Of a DNA stretch of 40,275 nucleotides, positions 3,605-32,494 are shown piece by piece. The stretch is from a virus, in IMG/VR virus record IMGVR_UViG_3300009296_000007, positions 1-40,275 of that record. One strand, 5' to 3'. How positions within the stretch are numbered: position 1 is the stretch's first letter; the number at the start of each line of letters is the position of its first letter. The notes under the pieces were generated by a model. The model did not search any database. It worked only from the letters and a program-made list of their open reading frames with translations, and was not told where the DNA came from. The position numbers and the translations under genes are program-made.

Positions 3605-4105
3605 TCATGCAAGTAGCTTCCTAAATCCTTCCATGTCGAAGCCTAGCGGGTCGTTCTTGCGCCCTGGAGCAATGTCGGCGTGGGTAACTACGTTATCAAG
3701 ACTGACGTTGTATGTCTCGCACAGATATTTGACTAGATCTGCGCAGACCTTTACCTGGGCATCAGGGTAGATCATCTTCCCGTCGTTGGCGTTGACCAAC
3801 TCAATTCCGATGCTGCAATTGTTCATCGTCGGTACATTGTTGACCGGGTTGACATGCTCCATGCCTTTCCAACGAGAGTTTCCAGCGTGCCAAGCGATAT
3901 TCCCGTCTAGTACAAGGTGATAGGCGTCTCCATTGGTTCCTATCAGGTAATGGGCAGAGGCCTTCGACTCTGAAGAAGTAAGCCAATCTAGCGGACTCTG
4001 TAGGCCAGGAGTTGCGGTAGCGTGCAAGACGATGCAAGAAATATGCCTCTCAATCGGCTCTCGGAAGTTTGGCGACGGATGCCAGATTGTCTTTGGCTTA
4101 ATCAT
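3605..4105 (-). CDS. N-acetylmuramoyl-L-alanine amidase, endolysin
   Basis: A 166-aa Amidase_2 (AmpD/T7-lysozyme-like) enzyme that cuts the amide bond between MurNAc and L-alanine in peptidoglycan to release progeny. The zinc ligands are visible as H28 (VLHATATP), H142 (VTHADI) and D152 (GRKNDP). SAHYLIG near 50-56 and WHAG at 72-75 are typical of the fold. It is a single-domain enzyme with no separate cell-wall-binding domain and no signal peptide, so it needs a holin-type exit. It overlaps the DUF1353 gene by ATGA, downstream of candidate holin-like membrane genes. Confidence 0.92.
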   Translation of the reverse strand: MIKPKTIWHPSPNFREPIERHISCIVLHATATPGLQSPLDWLTSSESKASAHYLIGTNGDAYHLVLDGNIAWHAGNSRWKGMEHVNPVNNVPTMNNCSIGIELVNANDGKMIYPDAQVKVCADLVKYLCETYNVSLDNVVTHADIAPGRKNDPLGFDMEGFRKLLA

Positions 4106-5887: not shown

Positions 5888-7452
5888 TTTGCTTTCTTCT
5901 TCTGAATCGTATTGTTTATCATGTTGTCCATCTTGTCGCGCAATTTTTCAGCCTTGTCTATATTCCCATTCTTGGCATTGGCATTGATCTCGCTGGCGTA
6001 TGAATTGACAAGATTCAGTTTAGAACCTAACGCCTCTTTCGCCATGGCAATAGCAATAGGAGTAACCTGACGTCCATTTCTTTCCAAAAAGTCGGATATG
6101 ACTTTTCCTGTCTTTGATGCTGCAAATGCCGATGCTCCAACAAATCTTGGAGACAACAAAGGGGCTGCCATTAGAGCCAATGGAGCTTTTGCAGCCGCAT
6201 ATATCCCGCCTCCGACTATTCCAGCCTTCCAGCCTGTATCCGGGATATTCCTAACAAGTGGAGCGAACTCTTGACCAGCCATTGTATCCCTCATGGCTTC
6301 AAGTTGCTTCCTTGCCCCGGCCACGTTGTTGGCAGATTCCATAATGGCATCATGCAGTTCGCCTTTATTCTTCAATGCTCGCTTTATGGTAGCAGCCGCA
6401 TCGTCGGCGTTTAGGACTTTGGATAACTCATCATCCAGTACATGGGCATTCCTGTAGATGATATTCGCCTGTTTTATTTCTGGTACGGCTTGCTCAAATA
6501 TACCACCATCACCCATTAGAGCGTTTTTGATCTTGCCAAGAGCAGATGCGATAGGTTTACCTTCATTGGCCTTGATCATGTGGGTCAAATCACGCTGTAG
6601 ATAATATGCTTCTTCTACGGTAGCGGAGCGCATTTGATTTATTCCGTTAAAGACATTCGCAAATTCCTGCGCCTCCACATTGTTGCTAATTCTATTTGGA
6701 AGCCCATACCCGAATTGCTTGCGGATATCATTCAAAACGGGGTCAAGAGCTTCAGATATATTAAGTCTAAAGTTTTCTCCATATTTGTTGCTGTTCTTTA
6801 CTACATTGTTAATGATATCTGCATATGACTTCTCAGCCGCTTCCGTATTCTCCCGGATGATCTCTTTGAACCCCTTTGCCAGATTTGGCAGAGCGTAAGA
6901 ACTAGGTGTTATCTTTGACCATACCTCAGACGGATAATCAATCATTCTTGCCATTGATTCTGGCGTTATCCCTGTAAACACCCTTCCTAAAAATTGAGCC
7001 GCTCCCTTTCCTGTTGCCTTTATCGCAGAAGCGGAAGCCTTCGCCACCATCGGCGCTACTTTTGCCCCAGCAGCATTGATAGCTGCTTCAGTTCCTACAT
7101 CTGCTACAAGTTCTACTGGACCCTTTTGTACTATGCTAGGATCAGTAATTGACGCCACGTTTTGTATAAGGTTTTGTACTGACTTCCCAGCCGCCGCGCC
7201 TGCCGCAGTTCCCGCAATTGGCGAAGCGAATGATCCAGCTATTCCACCAACAGTAGGAAGTATATTTCTACCAACTTCCTCGGCAATGTTTCCCGTGTTA
7301 AATCCAACTTGAGAGTCCTTGCCTAGAATACCTGCCTTGAAACTTTCGGCTAACCCAGGCTTTTCTTCTACAAATTGCAAAGATTCAGAATGGATAGGAG
7401 CATCTTCAAACTCTAATTCTTCTGATGAATATGTCTCTACTTTCTTCGCCAT
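5884..7452 (-). CDS. Internal virion / DNA-ejection protein candidate, 522 aa
   Basis: A 522-aa, mostly helical protein. The N-terminal 50 residues are acidic; residues about 60-90 are a Gly/Ala zipper (PTVGGIAGSFASPIAGTAAG) likely to insert in membranes. A long helical middle follows, then a second hydrophobic Gly/Ala stretch near 410-450 and a Lys-rich end (IQKKKAK). Podovirus ejection proteins have this make-up and lie in this gene order, after the tail tube genes and next to two other helical proteins. GGTGGG precedes its ATG. Assignment is by composition and context. Confidence 0.6.
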   Translation of the reverse strand: MAKKVETYSSEELEFEDAPIHSESLQFVEEKPGLAESFKAGILGKDSQVGFNTGNIAEEVGRNILPTVGGIAGSFASPIAGTAAGAAAGKSVQNLIQNVASITDPSIVQKGPVELVADVGTEAAINAAGAKVAPMVAKASASAIKATGKGAAQFLGRVFTGITPESMARMIDYPSEVWSKITPSSYALPNLAKGFKEIIRENTEAAEKSYADIINNVVKNSNKYGENFRLNISEALDPVLNDIRKQFGYGLPNRISNNVEAQEFANVFNGINQMRSATVEEAYYLQRDLTHMIKANEGKPIASALGKIKNALMGDGGIFEQAVPEIKQANIIYRNAHVLDDELSKVLNADDAAATIKRALKNKGELHDAIMESANNVAGARKQLEAMRDTMAGQEFAPLVRNIPDTGWKAGIVGGGIYAAAKAPLALMAAPLLSPRFVGASAFAASKTGKVISDFLERNGRQVTPIAIAMAKEALGSKLNLVNSYASEINANAKNGNIDKAEKLRDKMDNMINNTIQKKKAK

Positions 7453-8576
7453 GTTTTCCCACCATCCGAGCTAATATATGCTACAGCCGCAGCATCACCA
7501 GGGCCTTTTGCCATTCTCTCCATTTGACTAGATGATTGGGCTTGTGATTTAGTCTCCTGTGTGTTTTGTACATCAATTGATAATTTAGCTCTTACGATTG
7601 CATCAATATTCTTTGTTTTTGCCTCTATCGCCTCTGGATGGTCGCTGCGCTTAGGAATCATTTCAAGCAATAGTGCTTGGTCCCTATCAGTAAAAACTCC
7701 TTCGCCAGCTACACGGAACAATTGCTTTAGAACAGGTGCCATAGCTGCAATTGAACCTTCAGCGATTTGTTGCTTTGAAGTTACTGCCGGTATTCTCCCT
7801 AAAATAGGACCAGTATCAGAACCTTTTAGACCAGATAAAAGCCCATCTCTTGCTGTCTCATAAAGTTTGAATGTAGAAGAAAGAGTTGTGTCTTTTGCTA
7901 TCTTCTTCTCATAAGCTGGCCCTCCTGGTATAGGTTCTAAATCTCCGCTTTGAGTAAACCTAAACCCCTGTGGAGCCTTTGGCATACCGATACCGCTAGT
8001 AGCTGGCTTAGTCTGCTGCTGGAAAACATTAACAGGAATAGGCTGGCCTGCTTCATAACCCATCTTTGACAATCCTGGGTAATTTTTAATCATCTCAGGC
8101 GTCAGGGTTATCATCTGGGCCTTGTCCTTTGGCCTGACAATCGCCATTTCCTTACCCTGGGGATTAAGACCCATCATCCGGTAAAGATCATGCGTCGTCA
8201 TTACCCCACCTGCCGGCATTGTCTGCATGGGAGTCATCATCTGCGGTTGATTTTGCAGGACCGTCGATAAAACAGGCTTTGACTGAGGTTGTTCAACCAT
8301 GGGTGACAGTTGGCCCTTCATTGCCAATTCAGATATGCTCTTCTTTGCCTCAAGTTCGGCCAATGCGCTATGACCGGCAGCTGCATTCTTAGCCGCCGCG
8401 TCCTGGGCGCTCTTCTGCATGATCATGCTTGATATAGACCCAAGATTTTGTTGCAGCTGTTCCATCCCAGCATTGACCCCCTCAATCATTGGATTTGACC
8501 TATTGGCCGAAAGCTGGATGGCCTTACTCCAAAGCTCAGAAGCAGGTCCAAAATTCGGGCGGCTGATAAATTCCAT
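7437..8576 (-). CDS. Internal virion protein candidate, 379 aa
   Basis: A 379-aa protein with a helical Ala/Gln-rich N-terminal third (LQQNLGSISSMIMQKSAQDAA), a Met/Pro/Gln-rich linker around residues 90-125 and a helical C-terminal half. It has no signal peptide, and an ideal GGAGG precedes its ATG. It lies between two other ejection-type proteins, as the internal core genes do in podoviruses. The end SSDGGKTWRRK resembles a short Asp-box-like turn. No sequence family was recognised. Confidence 0.55.
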   Translation of the reverse strand: MEFISRPNFGPASELWSKAIQLSANRSNPMIEGVNAGMEQLQQNLGSISSMIMQKSAQDAAAKNAAAGHSALAELEAKKSISELAMKGQLSPMVEQPQSKPVLSTVLQNQPQMMTPMQTMPAGGVMTTHDLYRMMGLNPQGKEMAIVRPKDKAQMITLTPEMIKNYPGLSKMGYEAGQPIPVNVFQQQTKPATSGIGMPKAPQGFRFTQSGDLEPIPGGPAYEKKIAKDTTLSSTFKLYETARDGLLSGLKGSDTGPILGRIPAVTSKQQIAEGSIAAMAPVLKQLFRVAGEGVFTDRDQALLLEMIPKRSDHPEAIEAKTKNIDAIVRAKLSIDVQNTQETKSQAQSSSQMERMAKGPGDAAAVAYISSDGGKTWRRK

Positions 8577-8608
8577 ATTAATATCCTCCGGTAAATATTT
8601 TCAAAACA

Positions 8609-9286
8609 TTACCCGTTTGCAAATCCTTTCCCAGCAACACCACCCAATGTTCCTCCTAATTGCGCACCCTGTATTCCTCCCATAGAACCGCCCAAAAGAG
8701 TGCCTCCTATTGTACCTACAGCACCCCATTTTGCAGCATTAGAAGCAAATCTTCTAGATTTTTCAGCCTCTTCTAACGAAGCCTGTAGTGCCTCTTTGAA
8801 CATCTGCATATCCCTCTGCGAGGTAAGCTCTTGTCCCATGGCCTGGGCAAGAGTCAAGAGCAATTCCCGGTTATTGTTTATATCTCCGGTAGCGGCCTGG
8901 TAGATCATCTGAGATAGTTGATCTGCCGTCTGAGCGTACATATTCGCTATAGCGTCCTGGCCTGCAGCCCTAGCACCTCCCATTGCAGTTGCTTCTATAT
9001 CAGACCCGGTAAGACCGCGTTTCATCATATCCGTCTGGACCTGTGCTACATTCTGATTAGTCCTTACGTCTAAGGCCTTGGCATAAGGAGATAGCTTCTG
9101 GCCGGCAGGATCGAGCAATGCTTGAATACTCGGCATGACCGTACCAGTGATTGTAGGGAGATTCCCGGCCTTCTGAATCTGTCCCATGACATCAGAATAT
9201 TGCGGCGTAGACCCGCCCGCAAAGCTCATGTCAGGCTTTGTTATGTCGGGAAGTTTGAACCCTGAAAGGTCAGTTGTGTTAGGCAT
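8609..9286 (-). CDS. Internal virion protein candidate with C-terminal glycine zipper, 225 aa
   Basis: A 225-aa protein with a helical core (residues 65-190) and a C-terminal glycine zipper (GAVGTIGGTLLGGSMGGIQG and onward), the mark of small ejection proteins that insert into the host envelope. It follows the tail-tube gene by one base and has its own AAGGAAGG site. The central helices carry a long Gln/Met/Glu register (QRDMQMFKEALQASLEEAEK). Confidence 0.6.
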   Translation of the reverse strand: MPNTTDLSGFKLPDITKPDMSFAGGSTPQYSDVMGQIQKAGNLPTITGTVMPSIQALLDPAGQKLSPYAKALDVRTNQNVAQVQTDMMKRGLTGSDIEATAMGGARAAGQDAIANMYAQTADQLSQMIYQAATGDINNNRELLLTLAQAMGQELTSQRDMQMFKEALQASLEEAEKSRRFASNAAKWGAVGTIGGTLLGGSMGGIQGAQLGGTLGGVAGKGFANG

Positions 9287-17054: not shown

Positions 17055-17948
17055 TTAGGAAACCTCGTGTCCGTAGACAAACCGCCAGTCAACCGCGCTA
17101 ACGCCATTCGACATATACCCAGCAAACTTCTGGGTGATCGTGTCGAACTCGCCAGTCCTGAAGAACTGAGTAGGCTCCCACTGCCGGAACTTCAAAACCC
17201 GCTTCATCAGACGCGAGTCGATCATGAACCAGTTATTGGAGTCGGTCAGGAAGTTATCCCACACGGCCAACTTGTATCGGCCAACATGAAAATTCCTGTT
17301 GTTCATGGCCGTATCGGGCTTGCCGTAGGAATTAAGAATCTCCCAAGCCTTCTCGTGCAGGTCAGTCGGAACCAAGAGCATGTCAGGAGCGGCAGTCCTG
17401 ATATTGTCGCGATTGGTCTTGAACTTGACCATCAAGATACGGGTAGCCTCGACGTTAGCGGCAGAAAACGCCGAAGTGCCCATATTGCCCTGATTAGCTC
17501 CACCATTGTTTGACGTATGCGCCGTAGAACAAAGTTGGAGGGTATCTCCGACGGTATGTGTCGTATTGAAGGCGTTATTGAAGATCGAGGCACCAATCTC
17601 CTCTTTCTTCTGACGGAAAGCCTGGGCAAGCAAGCCGACCTGTGTGCGAACCACGTCGTACAAGTCATTGCGGAGCAACTTGCGCTGGACTTTCAGGCCA
17701 AGGGCGTATTCAGTCTCGGTGACTGACTTTTTATAGCCTTCCTTGGACTCGTCATAGGTGATCTGGCCTTGGTATACAGGCACAGAACCTATATCGCCGG
17801 CCTCAAGGTCATACTCAGTTCCTTGAGTAGCATCAACAAACCGGAATATCATCGGCAGCAAGGAATCGAAATCCCTGTACTGCTCGACGAATACTTCTGA
17901 CAGGTCCCGCTGGACGACACTAGGCCAATTAGCCTGGGTGAGAATCAT
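17055..17948 (-). CDS. Major capsid protein, Mu gpT-like HK97 fold
   Basis: A 297-aa protein with the pattern of the Mu gpT group of HK97-fold capsid proteins: LCSTAHTS near residue 140, an NVEATRILMVKFKT helix, PDMLLVPTDLHEKAWEIL near 190-207 and the WDNFLTDSNNWFMID strand pair near 235. It builds the icosahedral shell with the scaffold encoded upstream. The ribosome binding site GGGGG lies 7 nt before the ATG but inside a small perfect hairpin, and a strong hairpin follows the gene. Confidence 0.85.
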   Translation of the reverse strand: MILTQANWPSVVQRDLSEVFVEQYRDFDSLLPMIFRFVDATQGTEYDLEAGDIGSVPVYQGQITYDESKEGYKKSVTETEYALGLKVQRKLLRNDLYDVVRTQVGLLAQAFRQKKEEIGASIFNNAFNTTHTVGDTLQLCSTAHTSNNGGANQGNMGTSAFSAANVEATRILMVKFKTNRDNIRTAAPDMLLVPTDLHEKAWEILNSYGKPDTAMNNRNFHVGRYKLAVWDNFLTDSNNWFMIDSRLMKRVLKFRQWEPTQFFRTGEFDTITQKFAGYMSNGVSAVDWRFVYGHEVS

Positions 17949-20057: not shown

Positions 20058-20414
20058 CTAGTCTACGATCCCGCCACGGTTCTTGGCGAGCTTTATCTGC
20101 TGCCGTATCTCGGCTATTTCCTGCTCTGCCTTTTCTATATTCGCGTCTGTTGATTCAACGTCTCCAAGGATTCTCGCGTAGGCTATGCTCTCTCCGGCAG
20201 CAAGGCGGGCCTTGTCTACCTCACCTTTTACCAAGAATATCAGAGCGTCCTTTTCTGATGTTTCCTTGGCTAGTTTTATCTTCGGGCCGATGATTTCCCA
20301 AATCCCCTTATCCTTGCACTTGGCTATCTTCGACCACTTCTCAATCCTGGTATTTAGCTGCCCGATTCTGGCTTGAAGTTGAGTTATGCGCTCTTCACTT
20401 ACCCGCGTTGGCAT
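20058..20414 (-). CDS. Small coiled-coil protein after the portal, 118 aa
   Basis: A 118-aa protein with helical heptads at both ends (ERITQLQARIGQLNTRIEKW; EKAEQEIAEIRQQIKLAKN) and a short middle. It starts inside the portal gene (20-nt overlap) with AGGGGG 5 nt upstream. It may assist scaffold or portal assembly. No family recognised. Confidence 0.65.
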   Translation of the reverse strand: MPTRVSEERITQLQARIGQLNTRIEKWSKIAKCKDKGIWEIIGPKIKLAKETSEKDALIFLVKGEVDKARLAAGESIAYARILGDVESTDANIEKAEQEIAEIRQQIKLAKNRGGIVD

Positions 20415-22428
20415 TTAGACCCCCTGTGATATCCTGCTCTTGTTGACCTTTCATCGCCTGCAATTTCTCTGCCAAAATCTGAGGTACGCCAGGAGGGATT
20501 GCCCCCATCATCTGAGGCAACTGCTGCATACCAGGCTTGGGAGCTTCGATCAAGAAGCGGTTCAAGTCTAGAGGCTTTACAGCATAGACCATCTCATTCC
20601 ATGCTTCGATAAGTATCTGGGGTTTCATCTGCATGACAATCGGATTCGCAAGAGCAGCTTGCAGCAAAGCCTGGGCCTTCTCCATCTGGTATTCAGGAGA
20701 TAGCGCAAGTTCGCCTATTTTCAAATTGAATGACAGAGAATCAAGAGCGAATAGCGCCTTCTCCATTTCAAGTTCTATGCTCGAATCCTTGACCTTGCCC
20801 ATGTACTTGATCGACCTAGGGCCATATTGATAGTAAAGGGCATTGTGTAGCTTGACCAGTAGCGGGACTGAGCGCTTAAACTCGTTGATATAGTGGTCAA
20901 TTCTAAACGTGGATTGACGCAAAAGCGCAAGGGTCTTGGTCGCCGGCTGCTTTGGATCATTGATTGTCTCTTTACCGGACATGCCCTGAGAAGGACCTAG
21001 ACGTATTTCAAGATAGCGCATGACAGAGCCTTCTTCGTCAAGGCTGTTGTTTGTCCGGTCAAGGTTCTGCGTCACCATCTGCCTAGGGGCCTTATCTCCC
21101 ATGTACTCATCAGGCAAATAGAGAGTAACCCCAGGACGCCAAGCATAATCACCAGAACCGAAATCAATAGTATCCTTCAGACGTTCAGGTGCGATAAAAG
21201 CCGGAGCATCAGTAATCGCACGCACATTCTGACGGTGCCTGTGGAAATCGTCGATCATTCGGAACTGGTCATATCCATCACCGCAGAGAGATACGCCAAG
21301 AAGCCTACCGTCTCGCTTCAAGAATCTGAATATGACAACATTGTCGATATTGCGCCGAAGGTTATACCGCTGGATCTTCAGTATCCTGTGGCTCTGGTGT
21401 TCGTAGGTTAATAGGTATTTCTCTGGGACCCTATCACCGTCAATATCCTTCTTCAGCACAAGCCGGTAACACTCGCACCGTTTGAAATTGTCGCCTTCTG
21501 AGCTTAGACCCTCGATTGCCTCTCTGTTGTGGCCCCATACATCGTCTATCATGCCACTGGCCGCGACAATGGCTTCCTTGCCAGGTTCTTCGTCGTATTC
21601 ACCATACTTGATCTTTGTTTCTACAGTGTCAGTATGCTCAAAGAATTGCCGACCGTAGATAACGCAATCGCCAAGTTCCTCGGCTGATAGCGGGTGGAAG
21701 ATGAAGCGGGCTAGAGGTATCTTCGTAAAATGAGGAGCGTCATATATAACTTCGTCATAGATGTATTCGACGGAAAGGTCAGGGTTATATGTCTTATCCA
21801 GGTACTTTAGAGTCTTTGAGTATTTCTTCTCATCCATGCCGGCTGCTTCAGGGCTTGGATAATCAGCCATGAACTCGGCAGAGGTTTGATAGGTCTTGTA
21901 GTCTACGGCCTTCTCTACTTGACGCTTCCATTCTCCCATTACCGGGACTGTACCGTCTCGGAATAGCGGTATAGGCATGTCCCGTAGGACATCAAGAAGA
22001 TTATTTACCTTCGAGCCAAGCCAATTTACGGAATCTTCAAGCGTCTTTGCCTTCTCCCTTGTGGCCGCGCTGTTGTTCTCGGCTACCAGAAAAGACTCCT
22101 GCGAGAACAGTGACCTATCGAACGTAGCCGCCAGCGTCCTGGCAGAGCCGGCAGCTGTTCCCATCGTAACCCTTGACGCTCCAGTCCATGGGAAATCCTG
22201 TTCCTCGGTTACGCCTTCCATCAGGTCATTCCACTTCTGCAAGCGTTCTTTCAAAACGCTCGTCCCTTCCTTCCAGCGATCGACCATAACCCTTATTTCC
22301 TTCTCCAACTTGGTTAGGTAATTGCTTGATATCTTTACCTTGCCCTGCTGAAAGTCGGATTCAAGACGGTCAATCGCATCTCCTGTGCGCTCCTGGACAT
22401 TCTGCGGAGGCAGTAGAGATAGTTCCAT
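20395..22428 (-). CDS. Portal protein, 677 aa
   Basis: A 677-aa protein with features of large podovirus-type portals: an acidic N-terminal helix, FPWTGASRVTMGTAAG near residue 80, a central wing region (YIYDEVIYDAPHF near 225) with many charged turns, the GDGYDQFRMIDDFHRHRQN long-helix segment near 385 and a Gln/Met/Pro-rich C-terminal tail (QQLPQMMGAIPPGVPQ). The portal forms the dodecameric DNA channel at one capsid vertex and docks the terminase and adaptor. AGAGG precedes the ATG. The neighbours (terminase upstream, scaffold and capsid downstream) agree. Confidence 0.85.
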   Translation of the reverse strand: MELSLLPPQNVQERTGDAIDRLESDFQQGKVKISSNYLTKLEKEIRVMVDRWKEGTSVLKERLQKWNDLMEGVTEEQDFPWTGASRVTMGTAAGSARTLAATFDRSLFSQESFLVAENNSAATREKAKTLEDSVNWLGSKVNNLLDVLRDMPIPLFRDGTVPVMGEWKRQVEKAVDYKTYQTSAEFMADYPSPEAAGMDEKKYSKTLKYLDKTYNPDLSVEYIYDEVIYDAPHFTKIPLARFIFHPLSAEELGDCVIYGRQFFEHTDTVETKIKYGEYDEEPGKEAIVAASGMIDDVWGHNREAIEGLSSEGDNFKRCECYRLVLKKDIDGDRVPEKYLLTYEHQSHRILKIQRYNLRRNIDNVVIFRFLKRDGRLLGVSLCGDGYDQFRMIDDFHRHRQNVRAITDAPAFIAPERLKDTIDFGSGDYAWRPGVTLYLPDEYMGDKAPRQMVTQNLDRTNNSLDEEGSVMRYLEIRLGPSQGMSGKETINDPKQPATKTLALLRQSTFRIDHYINEFKRSVPLLVKLHNALYYQYGPRSIKYMGKVKDSSIELEMEKALFALDSLSFNLKIGELALSPEYQMEKAQALLQAALANPIVMQMKPQILIEAWNEMVYAVKPLDLNRFLIEAPKPGMQQLPQMMGAIPPGVPQILAEKLQAMKGQQEQDITGGLNANAGK

Positions 22429-23742: not shown

Positions 23743-23813
23743 AGCCCCCGCGCTGAATCGAACAGCGATCTATCGCTTACAAGGCGATGGCTCTGCCATT
23801 GAGCTACGGGGGC
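23743..23813 (-). tRNA. trnT: tRNA-Thr (anticodon UGU)
   Basis: A complete cloverleaf on the minus strand: 7-bp acceptor stem GCCCCCG/CGGGGGC, D-stem GCTC/GAGC with GG in the loop, anticodon stem ATCGC/GCGAT with loop CTTGTAA (anticodon UGU, plus-strand bases 23779-23781), and T-arm CGCTG-TTCGATT-CAGCG. The discriminator is U and CCA is not encoded. It reads ACA (and perhaps other ACN) codons. It sits 6 nt after the preceding gene. Confidence 0.95.
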
Positions 23814-24155: not shown

Positions 24156-24426
24156 TCTTGGCCTCCTGCGGCTTTTGATCGTACTTGTGCGATAGCTCGA
24201 TAAGTTTCTTCTTGAACGGCTCCGCGAAGTTGTGGCCGATTGACTTCTCGAACTCTGCCACAATCAGGTCAAAGAACTCGTTCATGACCTTCTGCATGTC
24301 CTTGACTTCCTTCGCTAACTGTTGATCGTTGTATTCGCAAACCGCTATCCTGGACAGAACGTGAACGTCCTTTGCGGCCTGAACTATCTTCTTATCCCTC
24401 AACGTCTTAGGCTGTGGCTTTTTCAC
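24139..24426 (-). CDS. Helical charged protein, 95 aa
   Basis: A 95-aa Lys/Glu-rich helical protein (KEVKDMQKVMNEFFDLIVAE near the middle). GTG 24426 is chosen because GGAGG lies 6 nt upstream; an ATG at 24432 touches the GGAGG and is less suitable. It overlaps both neighbours by about 15-20 nt. No family recognised. Confidence 0.6.
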   Translation of the reverse strand: MKKPQPKTLRDKKIVQAAKDVHVLSRIAVCEYNDQQLAKEVKDMQKVMNEFFDLIVAEFEKSIGHNFAEPFKKKLIELSHKYDQKPQEAKNGQQD

Positions 24427-24757
24427 TAGCATCCTCCATGACCATGATTATATCAGAAACGTCGCAAGCCATGTAGTGCTTGCCTTCCCACATGAAGCAG
24501 CGTTGAGCGTTCATGATGTCCAGAGACGGGTCAAGGACGATCTTCAGGCCTGGAGTCGTGCCTTCAACTAGATTGCCCACCTTAACGACCTTGGCCCAAA
24601 ACGCTTTGCGTGTTGTGTCACCGTTCTTTACCGTATCGGGAGTTATGATAGTCTCGCTCCGGGCCTTCTCAGGCAAGACCTCAACGAGCATCTTGAACCG
24701 TATCGGAGTAAAGTCGTCAGGGTTGCGCTCTGGTAGCCATTTATTGCTGCCTATCAT
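24407..24757 (-). CDS. GroES-like (Cpn10) co-chaperonin
   Basis: A 116-aa protein resembling Cpn10: IRFKMLVEVLPEKARSE (residues 19-35, compare DRVLVKVLPEE), an IITPDTVKNGD mobile-loop region, AKVVKVGN (55-62), then a KIVLDPS strand and GKHYMACDVSDIIMVME (92-108, matching the GEEYLIMREDDILAV end of GroES). Phage co-chaperonins such as T4 gp31 adjust host GroEL to fold the capsid protein. It lies between the terminase and head genes. Family call from pattern only. Confidence 0.65.
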   Translation of the reverse strand: MIGSNKWLPERNPDDFTPIRFKMLVEVLPEKARSETIITPDTVKNGDTTRKAFWAKVVKVGNLVEGTTPGLKIVLDPSLDIMNAQRCFMWEGKHYMACDVSDIIMVMEDASEKATA

Positions 24758-25198: not shown

Positions 25199-25416
25199 AT
25201 ATAAATTGTTCCTATCGACGATGAATGACATTTTCTGTTATCGTCAATTCGTTCTATAAATTTTTCGCAGCCCCTATTTATCCCAGTGCAAAAAATAAAT
25301 GGATGATCCCTGCGCCATCCACCGCAATCAGCGCATGTATCAAATTGTGGTTCCCTCCTCATCCAATGCCCCCGGTTTAATTCTATAATTGGACCCGGTT
25401 TGCAATCTTCTCTCAT
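25195..25416 (-). CDS. Small zinc-ribbon-like protein, 73 aa
   Basis: A 73-aa protein with DTCADCGG (residues 26-33) and FCTGINRGC (42-50), typical of a small zinc fold. It overlaps the terminase stop and the next start by ATGA. Not recognised. Confidence 0.6.
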   Translation of the reverse strand: MREDCKPGPIIELNRGHWMRREPQFDTCADCGGWRRDHPFIFCTGINRGCEKFIERIDDNRKCHSSSIGTIYI

Positions 25417-27056
25417 TGATAACCCGTCCTAAACTTCGGAATATTCATCCTAGATGAAACGCGGCCTTTAATTATCCTGTCTGATTCGTGCGTTTCCTCG
25501 GGAATGTATTCAGATTTGGCCAGCATGATTGCACCGATTCCGGCAGTTATTACACAATCGCTGAACGCTCCGGGCATGTGGTCCATCTCATCATTTTCCA
25601 GTTTAACGAACGACCGCATTTCTGAGATTGTCTGCAAGCTGTTGATCTTGAAACTGAACTCTCTAACAGCGGCCCTGGCTGAATTGATTATCTCGATTTT
25701 TGTTCCCTGCCGGCCTGGGCTTGTGTAGAATCCTAGATCAGAACCGCCAGTTGACTTCTCTCGGCGGTAGAGATTCGGATATTGATTATCCTGGATGCGC
25801 GTGCAAGTGGTAAGACCGTGGTTATTGACCTCAGGAACGAGCTGCGCGTAGTTGTAATAGGCCCCTAGCAAGCACAGGACATCGCCAAATAGCTCAGGAG
25901 CCACATGCCCGCGCCATTGGGCTACCTGCTCATTGTTGGCAAGATCCCAAACATCAGCTACAGAAAAGCAACCTTCGCTTATTCCAGCCGCAACATCTGC
26001 GCTGATAACATATTTTCCGTTTCGGCTTGGAACTCGATAGACTGACAGCCGGCCACGGTCTGACGGTTCCATCCCTACTCGATCTCCCTTGTCTATGATC
26101 TCACCGCGCCACAATACCGGCCTAGCAGTTTTTTCATGCTTGGCCAATGCCAGAGCATCAAAGACCATCGCGCCTGAAACCAAGAACGCTTCTTCACAAA
26201 AAGCAGGATATTCCTGCTCGAAGAGTGAAGGGTCGAACATTGATTCCTTCTTCATTCGACGCCATAGCAATTGACTGTCAGTAACGCCAAATTCAGTTTT
26301 TAGATTTCTCTCGTACTCATTAACGTCAGTAAGCGGCCTCGTGCAATCAACTTTAAGCGTGTTGTCCTGCCACCACCCGTAGAAGTGCCTGGCGTATTTC
26401 CTAGGCGCACCGTCAGGAAGGATTATACCGGCTTCGCCCTTGTCTGATTTTACCCATAGCATGTGAAATGGATTTCCGTAGCCATGGGCAGTTGACTCTA
26501 TGCAGCCCTCGGAGTCCTTGACGCAGGCCTCTTCGATGCCAGTGATTAGGTCAGGCTTCTGCCACCAAGCAAACTCGGTCAGGTGATAATCTGTAACGTC
26601 ATCACCACGACCGAAGGCCTTGGCTCCGGCAGTCCCGATATAGAGAGAGCTTTTCATCTGCGGAAATGAGATTGTGCTTTCCGTGACCTTAGCGCAGAGA
26701 TTGATAGCGCAGTTCTTTATCATCTCGACTGCGCGGCTAAGAATACGCTTGGTTGACTCTTCTTCGTGGCTTACGACAATAGCCCTCCGGTAAGGTATAG
26801 TCGCGCACTTGGCAACCATGCGTGCCAACCGTATAGTAGTAAACCCTTCCTTGCGCGATTTGAGAACCAAATCCCTCGTAGTTATTCTAGGCCAATAGTG
26901 GCTCTGGACATCGTTGAATACGAACGGGACCAGCCGAGACTCTTTGTTGAGAATGTAGAACGTGGACTCAATGAGAAATCTAGGGTCAACCTTGATCTTG
27001 TCCGTCAACAACTCGGCCCTTGCCTGGCTAACGGATATCGCCATATCTTGGGACAC
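25413..27056 (-). CDS. terL: Terminase large subunit
   Basis: A 547-aa packaging motor. The ATPase half has an adenine motif (NDVQSHYW, about 48-55), a Walker-A-like LKSRKEGFTT (65-74), Walker B with catalytic Glu (YHLTEF, E161) and a coupling ESTAHGYGNPFH motif (187-198). The nuclease half has acidic residues D353 (ISADVAAG), E409 (VPEVNNHGL) and D500 (GAFSDCVITAG). It cuts concatemers and pumps DNA through the portal. Start is GTG 27056 with a weak AAGG site; ATG 27044 is an alternative. It overlaps the upstream gene by 29 nt. Confidence 0.92.
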   Translation of the reverse strand: MSQDMAISVSQARAELLTDKIKVDPRFLIESTFYILNKESRLVPFVFNDVQSHYWPRITTRDLVLKSRKEGFTTIRLARMVAKCATIPYRRAIVVSHEEESTKRILSRAVEMIKNCAINLCAKVTESTISFPQMKSSLYIGTAGAKAFGRGDDVTDYHLTEFAWWQKPDLITGIEEACVKDSEGCIESTAHGYGNPFHMLWVKSDKGEAGIILPDGAPRKYARHFYGWWQDNTLKVDCTRPLTDVNEYERNLKTEFGVTDSQLLWRRMKKESMFDPSLFEQEYPAFCEEAFLVSGAMVFDALALAKHEKTARPVLWRGEIIDKGDRVGMEPSDRGRLSVYRVPSRNGKYVISADVAAGISEGCFSVADVWDLANNEQVAQWRGHVAPELFGDVLCLLGAYYNYAQLVPEVNNHGLTTCTRIQDNQYPNLYRREKSTGGSDLGFYTSPGRQGTKIEIINSARAAVREFSFKINSLQTISEMRSFVKLENDEMDHMPGAFSDCVITAGIGAIMLAKSEYIPEETHESDRIIKGRVSSRMNIPKFRTGYQ

Positions 27057-27282
27057 GACCTTCTTGACAGTCTAACCAGCCGCTTACTCGATCTAGGTAT
27101 CTTAGCTGTCGGCGGTGGATTACTCGGTCTTTGGCAATTTCCATTTTCACGGCAGCTTCAGATAATCGGTCATATCCTTTTTGGTCGATTGGTTCTTTAA
27201 AAGGCAGATAAACACATATCGCAAATGCCAACATCAGGATAGCGAGAATTATAATAAACGCCTCAAAACTATCTCTTAACAT
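27028..27282 (-). CDS. Membrane-anchored small protein, 84 aa
   Basis: An 84-aa protein with an N-terminal transmembrane helix (FIIILAILMLAFAICVYLPF, residues 9-28) and a charged helical C-terminal half. It overlaps both the SpoVG-like gene and terL. Could be a spanin- or holin-type protein by shape, but it is far from the lysis cassette. Not recognised. Confidence 0.6.
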   Translation of the reverse strand: MLRDSFEAFIIILAILMLAFAICVYLPFKEPIDQKGYDRLSEAAVKMEIAKDRVIHRRQLRYLDRVSGWLDCQEGRVPRYGDIR

Positions 27283-27547
27283 AGGCCAGATATTGAGTGA
27301 TAATATCTGATTCGAGAAATTCCCTTGCCGGCGCAGTCATTGGGAAAAACATATCCTCGAATACTGGACCTTCCATCCCCTCTTTTTTCCATGCAGGCAT
27401 GGCAAGGTGTAGTTTGTCCTTGCCCAGGTCAATTAGCCTTATACCCCTGATACAGAACCGCATTGGACCGTCAGATATGACTATCTCGGCGCTAGCCAGG
27501 TATTGTTCCTTTGGCCGACCGAATAACCTGACGCGTTCTATGATCAT
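27269..27547 (-). CDS. spoVG: SpoVG-family protein
   Basis: A 92-aa protein with the SpoVG layout: an N-terminal strand (IERVRLFG), a central strand with FCIRGIRLIDLGKDKLHLAMPAWKK (residues 31-55; compare the VxDIRVI and LFVAMPS motifs of SpoVG), then EDMFFPMTAPAREFLESDII. SpoVG is a small RNA/DNA-binding regulator of bacteria, sometimes carried by phages. The overlap with both neighbours places it in the packaging operon. Confidence 0.75.
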   Translation of the reverse strand: MIIERVRLFGRPKEQYLASAEIVISDGPMRFCIRGIRLIDLGKDKLHLAMPAWKKEGMEGPVFEDMFFPMTAPAREFLESDIITQYLAYVKR

Positions 27548-27687
27548 TTCTTCCTGCTCTTTTCCTTGGATTTCTTTTCGGATTCGCTCTTGTCTCTGTT
27601 CGTTATTGCGTCCATAAATTCAGGATGGACATATTCCAGACCTTTAGGACCAAACGTGCATATAAGCCTGTCCTGGTCATGACTCAT
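27544..27687 (-). CDS. Small basic-tailed protein, 47 aa
   Basis: A 47-codon ORF joined to both neighbours by ATGA overlaps. It starts MSHDQDRLICTFGPKGLEYV and ends in a Lys/Ser/Glu-rich tail (SEKKSKEKSRKK). No family recognised, but the tiling is exact. Confidence 0.65.
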   Translation of the reverse strand: MSHDQDRLICTFGPKGLEYVHPEFMDAITNRDKSESEKKSKEKSRKK

Positions 27688-27920
27688 GAATTATTCTCAC
27701 GAATTATAATCTTTCGGCCTTGTGCCTTGAGCCACTTGGCATACTTGCGCCCGCACTCCTGGGCCTCATTGACCATACGGTCAGTCTGCTCGCTTAACCT
27801 GGGGTCTCTCGGGTTCATCCGGTTTAGTCGTACATTCTGCTCATAGGCTCTTTCCTGGGCCAGCTTGGCCTCTCGGATAGCCTCTTTGCGTTGCTTCTCG
27901 CTCATCCAGCCGCTAGTCAT
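27684..27920 (-). CDS. Arg/Glu-rich helical protein, 78 aa
   Basis: A 78-aa charged helical protein (EKQRKEAIREAKLAQERAYE). ATG 27920 overlaps the preceding stop (ATGA) with GGAAGG upstream. Possibly nucleic-acid binding; not recognised. Confidence 0.6.
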   Translation of the reverse strand: MTSGWMSEKQRKEAIREAKLAQERAYEQNVRLNRMNPRDPRLSEQTDRMVNEAQECGRKYAKWLKAQGRKIIIRENNS

Positions 27921-28129
27921 GCTAAACCTTCCCGTATTGCCCAAAGCTGTTCCCTAGCGCATGATATTTCAATGAGAGCTTCAAGCATCGGACATGGTAG
28001 TGCTATTGATTTTTTCTTACCTTGGAATATTGTAGCGGCACCCCATAATCCGAAATCGTAGAATGCAGGAACGCCTGATTCCGAATCTCTCTTTTCAATT
28101 TCATGCCACCAAGGGAAGTTGCTTTTCAT
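27917..28129 (-). CDS. Small protein, 70 aa
   Basis: A 70-aa protein (FPWWHEIEKRDSESGVPAFY near the start, then GAATIFQGKKKS and a helical end). Overlaps on both sides by ATGA. Not recognised. Confidence 0.6.
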   Translation of the reverse strand: MKSNFPWWHEIEKRDSESGVPAFYDFGLWGAATIFQGKKKSIALPCPMLEALIEISCAREQLWAIREGLA

Positions 28130-28404
28130 TTTATTGACTCGATGCTTTTTCTATCGTGCTCTTTGATTTGTTGTGAGTCCATGTTGCATTGGTCTGGGCC
28201 ATAATGCCATTGACCTTTGTCCGGGCCATGACTGCAATTAGGACGCCAACATAGCTGCTCTGGTCCATTGGGTATGACCTGCAAATTTAGCACGCTGCCT
28301 TTGACCTGGGCAGTCGCAAACGCCCACTGGCACCGACCAAACTGATCCCGCAAGTGTACGAAGAAACCACCCTTTGACATATCGCCGCCGCCCTCGTAAA
28401 GCAT
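28126..28404 (-). CDS. Small protein with QWHxGPxxC motif, 92 aa
   Basis: A 92-aa protein with a beta-like N-terminal half and a Cys/His cluster (LCWRPNCSHGPDKGQWHY, then GPDQC). ATG 28404 has an ideal AGGAGG 6 nt upstream. The QWHYGPDQC part resembles QWHLGPC in the 24785-25198 protein, suggesting related metal-binding elements. Function unknown. Confidence 0.6.
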   Translation of the reverse strand: MLYEGGGDMSKGGFFVHLRDQFGRCQWAFATAQVKGSVLNLQVIPNGPEQLCWRPNCSHGPDKGQWHYGPDQCNMDSQQIKEHDRKSIESIK

Positions 28405-28414
28405 CTGATACCTC

Positions 28415-29902
28415 CTATTTCGCCGTGTGCAACACTCGCAAAGGGTCAAGCTTCAGAGCGTATTTAGCAATCGAGATTGCCGCCTTTGGCCGGCCTATCA
28501 ATTGCAGAGCAACAGACGATGCCGTTATAGACATTGGGTTATATCTATGCACCCTAGATGATTTTATTGACGCTCTAGCTACTGCCTTGCGAATGTCATT
28601 GTCAGTCGGCAAGGACGTGGCCGCTCTAGCCGGGTAGTAAAACTCCCATGGCGCAAACTTGGCAGCGCGTAGAAAATATCTGGCCGCGTCGTTGTATCTG
28701 CTTGACCTGTCTGCATGATGACCGCGCCTAGCCATCACATCTGATGCCAAAGATGAGGACATAACCGCAAATACAACACCAGCCAGTAAAGTCATGACCG
28801 ACCGCCTTGCTATAGTCGATCTCTCATCCCCGCTGGCACATGACCCTACTGCTACGGCCATTACGATATAGACCACTGGCGGGATAGGGTTAAATAGACC
28901 GAATATGCCAACGACAAGAAGCGCGCCTCTAACCGTGTCTGTCGCAGTTCGCCAACAATAGCAGGCCATGACCGCCCAGCCGGCTAGGCCAATCACTCCC
29001 TGTGATGCGAGTATGTTTGTAATCCAGTTGTGGCTGTGGACCTGAATAACAATGCTATCTCCCATCCTGGATGCAGTCAAAATATCCCTGACCCTCAAGA
29101 ACCATAGCGCACCAGTCCCAGGCCCCCAGCCTAGCCATGGGTGCTGCCACCATGCCAACATAGCCAATCTGTTTTGCTCTATCCGCATTACGTCAGATTG
29201 TGAGCCATGGTAGCCTAGGTAAATAACTGCAATAGCCGACATAGCAACAAGCAATGCCGCCAGTGTCCTCGGCAGTCGGTCACGGTAATGCCAGACGGCA
29301 GATACTACAGCCGCGATAATAGCACCGCGTGATCCGGTCAGTACCAACCCTATTACGCATACAGCTATGCTCAGATACCATGTGTCATCATAATCTGACA
29401 GGTACAGCGCAAACGGTATCGTCATTGCCGCCATCAAGCCAGACCATGCTGGATGACCCATAAGCCCTGGCATGCGGTTATATGACGCTGGCGCATTCCA
29501 GGCTAGAGGATTTATCCCCATGCCCTGCAAGACCAAATACATAGCGGCTATCGTTCCAAATATCGTTATGGCAATTGCCACAACATGATCGTCAACCCCA
29601 ACAGCATTGCTCATGAGCAAATAACACAACAGCATTAACATGACTGTCTCTGCCCCGCAATACCACTGACCCATAATCGACATTGACGGGTCTATGCTAG
29701 TCAATATGCTGGGAACAGCGCATAGTCCGAACACTGACCATGCCCGGGCCTGCATCGGGCTGTATCGCCTCTGGTAAATGGCTCCCAATAAGGCCGCAAG
29801 CGCAGCAACCCAAAGCCTAGGCATTGTCCATACCGACAACGTGGCCGGCAACACAACGACAAGAGATGATATAGCTATAACCGCCGCAACTGCTCTAACC
29901 AT
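28415..29902 (-). CDS. O-antigen ligase/polymerase-like membrane protein (WaaL/Wzy superfamily)
   Basis: A 495-aa protein with about ten transmembrane helices and motifs of the O-antigen ligase/polymerase superfamily: TGSRGA (189-194), a periplasmic WWQHPWLGWGPGTG (251-264) and HSHNWITNILASQG (289-302), followed by more helices. The last 100 residues are helical and TPR-like (YNDAARYFLRAAKFAP). Such enzymes polymerise O-antigen or transfer it to lipid A-core. In a phage it could change the host surface and exclude rivals. It overlaps the terminase small subunit by 8 nt and has its own GAGG site. The family assignment is reasonably clear; the role is inferred. Confidence 0.75.
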   Translation of the reverse strand: MVRAVAAVIAISSLVVVLPATLSVWTMPRLWVAALAALLGAIYQRRYSPMQARAWSVFGLCAVPSILTSIDPSMSIMGQWYCGAETVMLMLLCYLLMSNAVGVDDHVVAIAITIFGTIAAMYLVLQGMGINPLAWNAPASYNRMPGLMGHPAWSGLMAAMTIPFALYLSDYDDTWYLSIAVCVIGLVLTGSRGAIIAAVVSAVWHYRDRLPRTLAALLVAMSAIAVIYLGYHGSQSDVMRIEQNRLAMLAWWQHPWLGWGPGTGALWFLRVRDILTASRMGDSIVIQVHSHNWITNILASQGVIGLAGWAVMACYCWRTATDTVRGALLVVGIFGLFNPIPPVVYIVMAVAVGSCASGDERSTIARRSVMTLLAGVVFAVMSSSLASDVMARRGHHADRSSRYNDAARYFLRAAKFAPWEFYYPARAATSLPTDNDIRKAVARASIKSSRVHRYNPMSITASSVALQLIGRPKAAISIAKYALKLDPLRVLHTAK

Positions 29903-30386
29903 TCGTAGCCTCTCCCTCGATCACGTCAGGTATTGGCAATCCTCGCTTCTCCCGCTCCTGCATGATCAGTATTGCGATTGAGAGTTTGTCGCCATTGATA
30001 CCAGAACCATCTTGAGTCCCGATGTTGCGCCATTTACGATTTGCCTCAACGGCTTTTAGTCGGGTGTCATGGTCGGGCAGAGTCTTGCCAAACTTGCCCT
30101 CAGTATTTGCCTTATGCGCATCGGCTATGACTTTTGCAGAGGCGTCAATAGTGGCTCCGGCTTTGTCAAGAGCCTCTTGCACAGCAGCCTGGACGTGAGG
30201 CAATTTTAGGGTTTGCGAGCCAGTGACACAAGCAGACAATCTATTAGTCCCATACCCCGAGTCAAGAGCCGCCTCAGTTATAGATTTGCCCTTGACTATA
30301 TTTGCAACAAGACGCCGCTGCTTGATTGTAAGCCCACGACGTTTTCGGATATCTACTTTTTTTGGTGCCTCTTTGTTGTTGTCCAT
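29895..30386 (-). CDS. terS: Terminase small subunit
   Basis: A 163-aa protein with a basic N-terminus (KKVDIRKRRG), a helix-turn-helix (LTIKQRRLVANIVKGKSITE, then AALDSGYG), helices likely for oligomerisation and an acidic tail. This is the standard small-terminase layout for recognising the phage DNA and starting packaging. It lies upstream of terL, separated by several small genes and the O-antigen-ligase-like gene. Confidence 0.8.
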   Translation of the reverse strand: MDNNKEAPKKVDIRKRRGLTIKQRRLVANIVKGKSITEAALDSGYGTNRLSACVTGSQTLKLPHVQAAVQEALDKAGATIDASAKVIADAHKANTEGKFGKTLPDHDTRLKAVEANRKWRNIGTQDGSGINGDKLSIAILIMQEREKRGLPIPDVIEGEATNG

Positions 30387-30562: not shown

Positions 30563-30596
30563 AAAAAAAGGAGCCCATGATTTATAGTCATGGGCT
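30563..30596 (-). terminator. Strong intrinsic terminator ahead of the packaging operon
   Basis: AGCCCATGA and TCATGGGCT form a perfect 9-bp stem with a 7-nt loop, followed by CC and seven U residues on the minus strand. It lies only about 70 nt after a promoter and directly before packaging genes, so it acts as an attenuator or the end of a small RNA. Confidence 0.85.
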
Positions 30597-30848: not shown

Positions 30849-31184
30849 TTATGGCAACAACTCCTTAGGACAAGAAACTTTCTTTATATTCTCAAATCCT
30901 TGTCTTGGATCGCGTTCAGGGTTGTACATGTATCCAGACTCTACCACCTCCCATGGGTCCGACTTATCCGCGATGTTATTATGTTTTACTGAGTATTTCC
31001 CGACGTACATAACGCGACACGTTCTATTAATCCACATGGCATCACCGCTCATCATGCGGTAGCAATCCCCCGCCGATAGCATCACTGCCTTTGAACTATC
31101 CAACGGCTTATCAACTTTTCCTGCTCCATTCCTCGAACATCCAGACAACAACAACAGCAGCAGCAGCAGCGCCAATTTCTTCAT
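30849..31184 (-). CDS. Lipoprotein, 111 aa
   Basis: A 111-aa protein with a lipoprotein signal (MKKLALLLLLLLLSGC, lipobox LSGC). The mature domain has a GDCYRMMSGDAMWINRTCRV core with two cysteines and VGKYSVKHNN. Its ATG overlaps the stop of the upstream frame (ATGA), which supports coding of the stretch after the amber codon there. Possibly an exclusion or envelope lipoprotein. Confidence 0.7.
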   Translation of the reverse strand: MKKLALLLLLLLLSGCSRNGAGKVDKPLDSSKAVMLSAGDCYRMMSGDAMWINRTCRVMYVGKYSVKHNNIADKSDPWEVVESGYMYNPERDPRQGFENIKKVSCPKELLP

Positions 31185-31447: not shown

Positions 31448-31551
31448 ATTTTATTCTCCCAGTATACCCAGCAGTTGATAAGTACGCCAAACATCCAAAC
31501 GGCTACGATAGCGGCGCAGATTGCCCAGTCGTTTCGCAGGAGGCGGGTCAT
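31444..31551 (-). CDS. Single-helix membrane peptide, 35 aa
   Basis: A 35-codon ORF linked by ATGA overlaps to the DUF5131 gene before it and the next gene. It encodes a short basic N-terminus (MTRLLRND) and one transmembrane helix (WAICAAIVAVWMFGVLINCW). Function unknown. Confidence 0.6.
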   Translation of the reverse strand: MTRLLRNDWAICAAIVAVWMFGVLINCWVYWENKI

Positions 31552-32324
31552 GGGAGCTGCCTGGGGCCTATTGGCTGTCCGTAGGAATCGACCTTTCCGA
31601 AAAACGGGACCTCCGCCTCTCGGCATTGGACGACAAGACTCGAATAATCCCGTGTGTCCATGCGTCTTTTGTGCGGTCCTGTCTCTCCTCCGCAGACGAC
31701 CCAATCAATGCCCTCTTTTAGCGGTCCGCCAAAACGATCTCCTGGACCTGCCGGTAGAGTCGATCCTATGGGCACATCTCTAAAAAACACAGGCCCCAAC
31801 ATCGGCTCCACCGATATCCACCTTTTGGCCGCTGGCGTCTGCAAGAGCAACGGTATTCGCTCATCCGCTGCGGCCTGGTTCTCGACGCTGACGCCGAGCC
31901 AGATATTGTCTATGGCCGGACCGTTGCTTTCGTTCCAGTAGTGCTTCATCCATTCGAGCATACGCTTGGGCCTCTTGGTCAGAATCAAATAGGTGTGTTG
32001 GTGTTGCTCGTGCATGACGTGGAAAATATCGCTCAACCACATCTGTCTAATATCTTCGTGGAAGATATCTCCCATGAACTGGACAGCAATCATGGCGGGC
32101 TTGCGAACCTTGGTTGGCGCAAGAAGCTCGTCAACGTCTATCCGCAACGAGTCGCCGGAATATGCCTTGCGGTTTTTCGCGCTGAACGTCGGGTTGGCCG
32201 CATGACGCTTGGCGAACCGCAGGTGCCAGCAGTTTTTGCAGCCTTCGGACACTGGATCGCAGCGCATCTTGATCGGGTTCCAGCTGTACCCGCCCTGCAA
32301 ATACTCGATCTTTGACCGTTGCAT
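31548..32324 (-). CDS. Phage Gp37/Gp68-family (DUF5131) protein
   Basis: A 258-aa protein matching the Gp37/Gp68 (DUF5131) family: SWNPIKMRCDPVSEGCKNCW with cysteines 22, 29 and 32, then FMGDIFHEDI, LILTKRPKRMLEWM, IWLGVSVEN, WISVEPMLGP and WVVCGGETGPHKRRMD. The three-cysteine cluster suggests a metal or Fe-S site, but the reaction is not established. The start is ATG 32324 in a TAATG overlap with GGGAG upstream. Common in phage accessory regions. Confidence 0.85.
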   Translation of the reverse strand: MQRSKIEYLQGGYSWNPIKMRCDPVSEGCKNCWHLRFAKRHAANPTFSAKNRKAYSGDSLRIDVDELLAPTKVRKPAMIAVQFMGDIFHEDIRQMWLSDIFHVMHEQHQHTYLILTKRPKRMLEWMKHYWNESNGPAIDNIWLGVSVENQAAADERIPLLLQTPAAKRWISVEPMLGPVFFRDVPIGSTLPAGPGDRFGGPLKEGIDWVVCGGETGPHKRRMDTRDYSSLVVQCREAEVPFFGKVDSYGQPIGPRQLP

Positions 32325-32494
32325 TATTTCTCCCTCTCCGCGATCATGGCGTCGGCATAACGATACGCCTCTATCGCACATTGTGACGGGTCCGGGCAAT
32401 AATCAGGCAAAAATGCGCGCATCGCATTTGCGGCAAAATAATCCCTGAGCGACATCACTTGCGGAAACGCCTGACCTACGTCTGGTTTATTCAT
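32324..32494 (-). CDS. Small protein, 56 aa
   Basis: A 56-aa protein (SLRDYFAANAMRAFLPDYCP core, then AIEAYRYADAMIAEREK). The LRDYFAAxAM and YxxADAMIAER blocks are familiar from many phage early-region proteins of unknown function. AGGAGG precedes ATG 32494. Confidence 0.7.
   Translation of the reverse strand: MNKPDVGQAFPQVMSLRDYFAANAMRAFLPDYCPDPSQCAIEAYRYADAMIAEREK

Follow-up and report, generated by a model that had tools for sequence, protein, structure and literature searches.

What is a gene for a glycan-handling membrane enzyme doing between the two terminase genes of a phage? The window analysed here (the whole 40,275-nucleotide stretch of DNA from IMG/VR record IMGVR_UViG_3300009296_000007) contains such a gene, which we call wzy, and its product is referred to below as the window protein. 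Glycan polymerases of phages have so far been known as tools of lysogenic conversion. If a gene of this family is indeed expressed jointly with the two terminase genes by a phage that has no recognisable integration genes, remodelling of the host surface may also serve a lytic programme. The kind of enzyme is known; the unusual site of its gene and its absence in relatives of the phage make up the testable point.

The wzy reading frame and the packaging unit

The start of wzy overlaps the stop of terS by 8 nt, ATGGTTAG (29902-29895), inside the terS ORF, and a good Shine-Dalgarno sequence, GGGAGAGG, is present a few nucleotides 5' of the start. The translational overlap of a 495-residue ORF with the gene for the small terminase subunit, as originally predicted, was thus borne out. 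At its other end wzy is separated by 9 nt from the next gene, whose AGGAGGT motif overlaps the wzy stop. The synonymous codon score of wzy in its own frame (0.032) was within the range of the structural genes of the phage and higher than that of the five other frames, indicating that the frame is coding and resident. We conclude that wzy is a real, resident gene that belongs to a tightly packed late unit.

Genes in this unit are co-directional, in the order terS, wzy, small genes and terL (Table 1). The prediction that wzy precedes terL holds in the sense that wzy lies upstream of it in one co-directional unit, but the two are not adjacent, since ~1.36 kb with several short ORFs lies between them. 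Terminator-like hairpins were found on either side of the unit and are suggestive, although the number of hairpins in the terS-terL region was not above that in shuffled sequences.

Table 1. Features of the wzy locus and the morphogenesis genes used as reference points.
Feature	Position	Strand	Remarks
Polytopic membrane protein of the Wzy_C / O-antigen ligase superfamily (wzy), 495 aa	28415..29902	(-)	ATG start; R192, R240, H291
Terminase small subunit (terS, Terminase_2)	29895..30386	(-)	Terminase_2 31 bits vs 26.1; PHROG terS 6.7e-9
Short ORF directly after wzy, no function assigned	28126..28405	(-)	Probable ATG at 28405
70-aa ORF, no function assigned	27917..28129	(-)	ATGA overlap with ORF 28126..28405
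Short ORF, no function assigned	27684..27920	(-)	ATGA overlap with ORF 27917..28129; longer TTG form to 27944
SpoVG-domain small protein, between wzy and terL	27269..27547	(-)	PF04026, 38.7 bits, cut-off 29.6
Terminase large subunit (terL)	25413..27056	(-)	phrog_2; PHROG terL 5.2e-16
Terminator-like hairpin followed by a T run, 5' of the terS-wzy-terL unit	30572..30596	(-)	9 pairs; suggestive
Terminator-like hairpin just 3' of terL	25298..25323	(-)	Suggestive
Portal protein (SU10-like), anchors the packaging module	20395..22428	(-)	
Major capsid protein, query for sister phages	17055..17948	(-)	

Several other features of the neighbourhood were recorded. Upstream of terS, among genes on the same strand, a DUF5131 (phage Gp37/Gp68) protein is encoded at 31548-32399 (-; 204 bits), and a tRNA-Thr (TGT) gene lies at 23743-23813 (-), between terL and the portal gene. 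Also between these two genes, the ORF at 24407-24757 (-) matched Cpn10 at 14.5 bits, below the cut-off; it is the counterpart of a small GroES/Cpn10-like gene found between terL and the portal gene in two related records (L098:13693-14103 and L007:4937-5284; Cpn10 33.5 and 25 bits, respectively). Near terS, a lipoprotein-like ORF at 30849-31184 (-), beginning MKKLALLLLLLLLSGCS, showed weak matches to Rz-like spanins; an Amidase_2 endolysin is encoded far from it, at 3605-4105. The possible lipoprotein spanin hints at a diderm host.

Family assignment of the window protein

A Pfam scan matched residues 178-309 of the window protein to Wzy_C (PF04932) at 48.2 bits (curated cut-off 31.7; E 1.3e-12), and in the same library E. 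coli WaaL scored 50.0 and the beta-polymerase of Salmonella phage epsilon15 40.0 bits. A profile built from seven other Wzy_C proteins alone, with the window protein left out, matched it in a profile-profile comparison with 97.6% probability (E 3e-12). The proposed membership of the WaaL/Wzy superfamily of membrane proteins is therefore upheld. The prediction had named the family match and the periplasmic His/Arg residues as its points of failure, and a WaaL-type Arg/Arg/His triad was present: R192, R240 and H291 align with R215, R288 and H338 of WaaL and with R210, R273 and H315 of the epsilon15 protein. The three WaaL residues are important for function in E. coli and are conserved in PglL (PMC3643930). 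Judged by hydropathy alone, many hydrophobic segments occur along residues 4-386, and a non-hydrophobic stretch (232-293) contains both R240 and H291. No family matching the window protein was found in NCBIfam or PHROGs, and the AlphaFold model, computed from an input of 3 sequences, reached a pLDDT of 38.

The window protein is almost certainly a glycosyltransferase of the Wzy_C type, as judged from these comparisons. Its sequence features fit a ligase (WaaL), a polymerase (Wzy) or a protein oligosaccharyltransferase (PglL) alike, and do not separate the three. A PglL-like enzyme would glycosylate a protein of the phage or of the host envelope rather than take part in LPS building, and the Wzy_C domain together with the same Arg/Arg/His residues is common to PglL and WaaL (PMC3643930). 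We consider this improbable, however, as Wzy_C was the sole domain above threshold in the Pfam scan, with no PglL-specific or Wzy_C_2 domain, and no pilin-like target gene was recognised nearby. The C-terminal tail of ~110 residues had been described as TPR-like, which could not be established: TPR_2 scored 17 bits against a cut-off of 27, and the best PDB sequence match had an E value of 0.8.

Relatives of the gene and lifestyle of the phage

A tblastn search with the window protein as single-sequence query (E 1e-3) detected no relative in GenBank phages, plasmids, IMG/VR or the GTDB species genomes, and peptide-pattern searches that included IMG/VR found no close relative. Searching GTDB with an alignment as query retrieved two distant genes from Rhodobacteraceae, and one of 398 Pseudomonadota genomes contained a weak match (4e-5). 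The relatives detected in this way are too distant for transfer of function. The sole weak match labelled as phage, the GenBank 'Bacteriophage sp.' scaffold MT836287.1, was rejected as viral, for it carries phosphate-transporter-like and regulator-like ORFs and no phage gene; it appears to be a bacterial contig that was entered in GenBank under a phage name, and its Wzy_C protein to be bacterial.

Among 150 viral records related by terL (100, two GenBank phages among them) or by capsid protein (50), many of which are fragments and none a very close sister, no Wzy_C domain was found, while control genomes in the same search were positive. Because of this, wzy looks like a lineage-specific acquisition. 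The nearest relative with synteny, the 44.1-kb record L098 (identity 36% for TerL, 42% for the capsid protein and 23% for the portal protein), lacks Wzy_C throughout its length. In L098 and in L007, the nearest relatives, a short ORF that is not of the Wzy_C type lies directly 5' of terL. These short ORFs were suspected to encode TerS and matched no family, and for that reason insertion of wzy between terS and terL is something that we infer rather than observe. Membrane ORFs near terL in relatives occurred in minus-strand (antisense) frames alone and were judged spurious. L007, which has the closest TerL, carries between terL and the portal gene (6027-8828, +) a gene for a 933-residue protein with alpha-galactosidase domains (Melibiase_2 and Melibiase_C), another sugar-active gene beside terL.

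That wzy is a singleton in its lineage would also be expected of a mere passenger, acquired from a host through illegitimate recombination and of no use to the phage. An intact frame of 495 codons, conserved catalytic residues and codon use like that of the structural genes speak against such a passenger, and the precise translational packing of wzy argues for maintained expression, so that we regard this explanation as very improbable.

The phage had been described as apparently lytic, and support for this part of the prediction is weak. Neither a Phage_integrase nor a Resolvase domain was present in the six frames of the record, and integrase was likewise not found in the closest relatives (L098, L044 and two fragments, L007 and L101). 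On the other hand, five of the nine longer (>=30 kb) terL-related records searched contained an integrase, and the ends of the record showed neither terminal repeats nor a gene clearly spanning them when joined. Lacking end repeats, the record may be incomplete. The phage may be lytic.

The same observations bear on whether the phage may be temperate and wzy serve lysogenic conversion, the genes for integration being missing from the record or unrecognised, in which case expression from the prophage would matter, as in D3 and epsilon15. The integrases of the longer relatives and the possible incompleteness of the record are in keeping with this, and nearly all described phage Wzy_C genes come from temperate phages or prophages. 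Apart from the missing integrase and resolvase domains, it is opposed by orientation: the D3 and epsilon15 genes run against the late genes, whereas wzy sits inside a late unit that would normally be silent in a prophage. We therefore hold lysogenic conversion to be rather unlikely, though clearly less so than a PglL-like function.

Possible role of the enzyme

Enzymes of the Wzy_C family work on the periplasmic side of the inner membrane, and their substrates are glycans linked to undecaprenyl pyrophosphate. The explanation that we favour, with some reservation, is that wzy is an acquired glycosyltransferase gene of the 'moron' type, situated between terS and terL, read with the late packaging genes, and altering a surface glycan that serves as receptor. 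Inserted as an accessory gene, it would be transcribed with its neighbours, and its product, by analogy with the family, would reside in the inner membrane of the host and take undecaprenyl-pyrophosphate-linked glycan from the periplasmic side. R192 and R240 may contact the pyrophosphate and H291 may belong to the catalytic site, again as in the family, and the enzyme would then either join repeat units, as Wzy does, or transfer the chain to an acceptor, as WaaL does. Production late in infection would alter newly exported surface glycan, and the changed glycan would most likely hide or alter the receptor. At this late stage, or in a carrier state, related phages or progeny would then no longer be bound by the infected cell or its debris.

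The steps of this scheme differ in how firmly they can be held. By analogy with characterised phage enzymes, the wzy product probably acts on a host surface glycan; control of adsorption or superinfection as its purpose is suggested more tentatively. The Wzy proteins of phages D3 and epsilon15 change the surface glycan and the receptors of their hosts (PMC9658991), as does wzyPh1 of Acinetobacter prophages (PMC9241936). Masking of the receptor appears to be the most economical benefit because lysogens whose LPS has been modified by D3 resist phages that depend on LPS (PMC9658991). Against this benefit, the late phase of infection may leave little time for most of the surface LPS to be changed, which would favour slow infection, a carrier state or the lysogenic-conversion alternative. 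No partner gene (iap, O-acetylase or flippase) was recognised. A bolder version of the receptor-altering role, to which we give a low likelihood, is that a virulent phage makes the enzyme from its packaging operon and so changes the receptor just when virions are assembled, keeping its progeny and later phages from binding the dying cell or its debris; this would amount to a late, non-lysogenic serotype conversion.

Comparison with known phage and bacterial enzymes

Phage proteins of the Wzy_C type are already known from D3, epsilon15, VarioGold and YPHTV-1, mostly as products of lysogenic-conversion genes. New here are the position of such a gene, flanked by terS on one side and terL on the other, and the lack of recognisable genes for integration in a record that may be incomplete. 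The epsilon15 beta-polymerase (NP_848229, O-antigen ligase family), annotated as serotype-converting, is like the window protein a phage Wzy_C membrane protein with the same Arg/Arg/His residues, but it is shorter (392 against 495 residues), and the two share 16% identity. Epsilon15 is temperate and has an integrase, and its beta-polymerase gene, accompanied by an alpha-polymerase inhibitor, lies between the tailspike and lysis genes and is read against the late genes, from the other strand. Wzy-beta of the temperate Pseudomonas phage D3 is likewise a phage-encoded O-antigen polymerase, with a weak Wzy_C match (21.9 bits); its gene also opposes the late genes, and it works with iap and an O-acetylase (PMC9658991). 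The D3 and epsilon15 proteins match separate PHROGs, which would fit repeated independent acquisition from hosts.

VG_p25 of the temperate phage VarioGold is an O-antigen ligase/polymerase-type membrane protein whose gene belongs to a moron-like cluster that adjoins the lysis genes and runs opposite to the late genes (PMC9658991), and the phage-encoded Wzy of Acinetobacter, wzyPh1, is found in prophages and polymerises capsule (PMC9241936). E. coli K-12 WaaL belongs to the same Pfam family, with a similar score and a nearly equal spacing between the second arginine and the histidine (50 residues, against 51 in the window protein); it differs in being chromosomal, in sharing 14% identity with the window protein and in lacking the C-terminal extension.

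A parallel in gene arrangement is the 'O-antigen ligase' of Halomonas phage YPHTV-1 (UUG68605; Wzy_C 85 bits), whose gene is co-directional with the tail genes in a late operon. Its similarity to the window protein was weak (E 3e-5 in a single pairwise comparison), and the phage has an integrase (PMC10305713). It is a precedent for a Wzy_C gene in a phage late operon, to be set beside the original claim that surface-modifying genes are rare in the middle of a late packaging operon of an apparently lytic phage, although the site of wzy remains unusual: the YPHTV-1 gene lies among tail genes, beside an O-acetyltransferase gene, whereas wzy lies between terS and terL.
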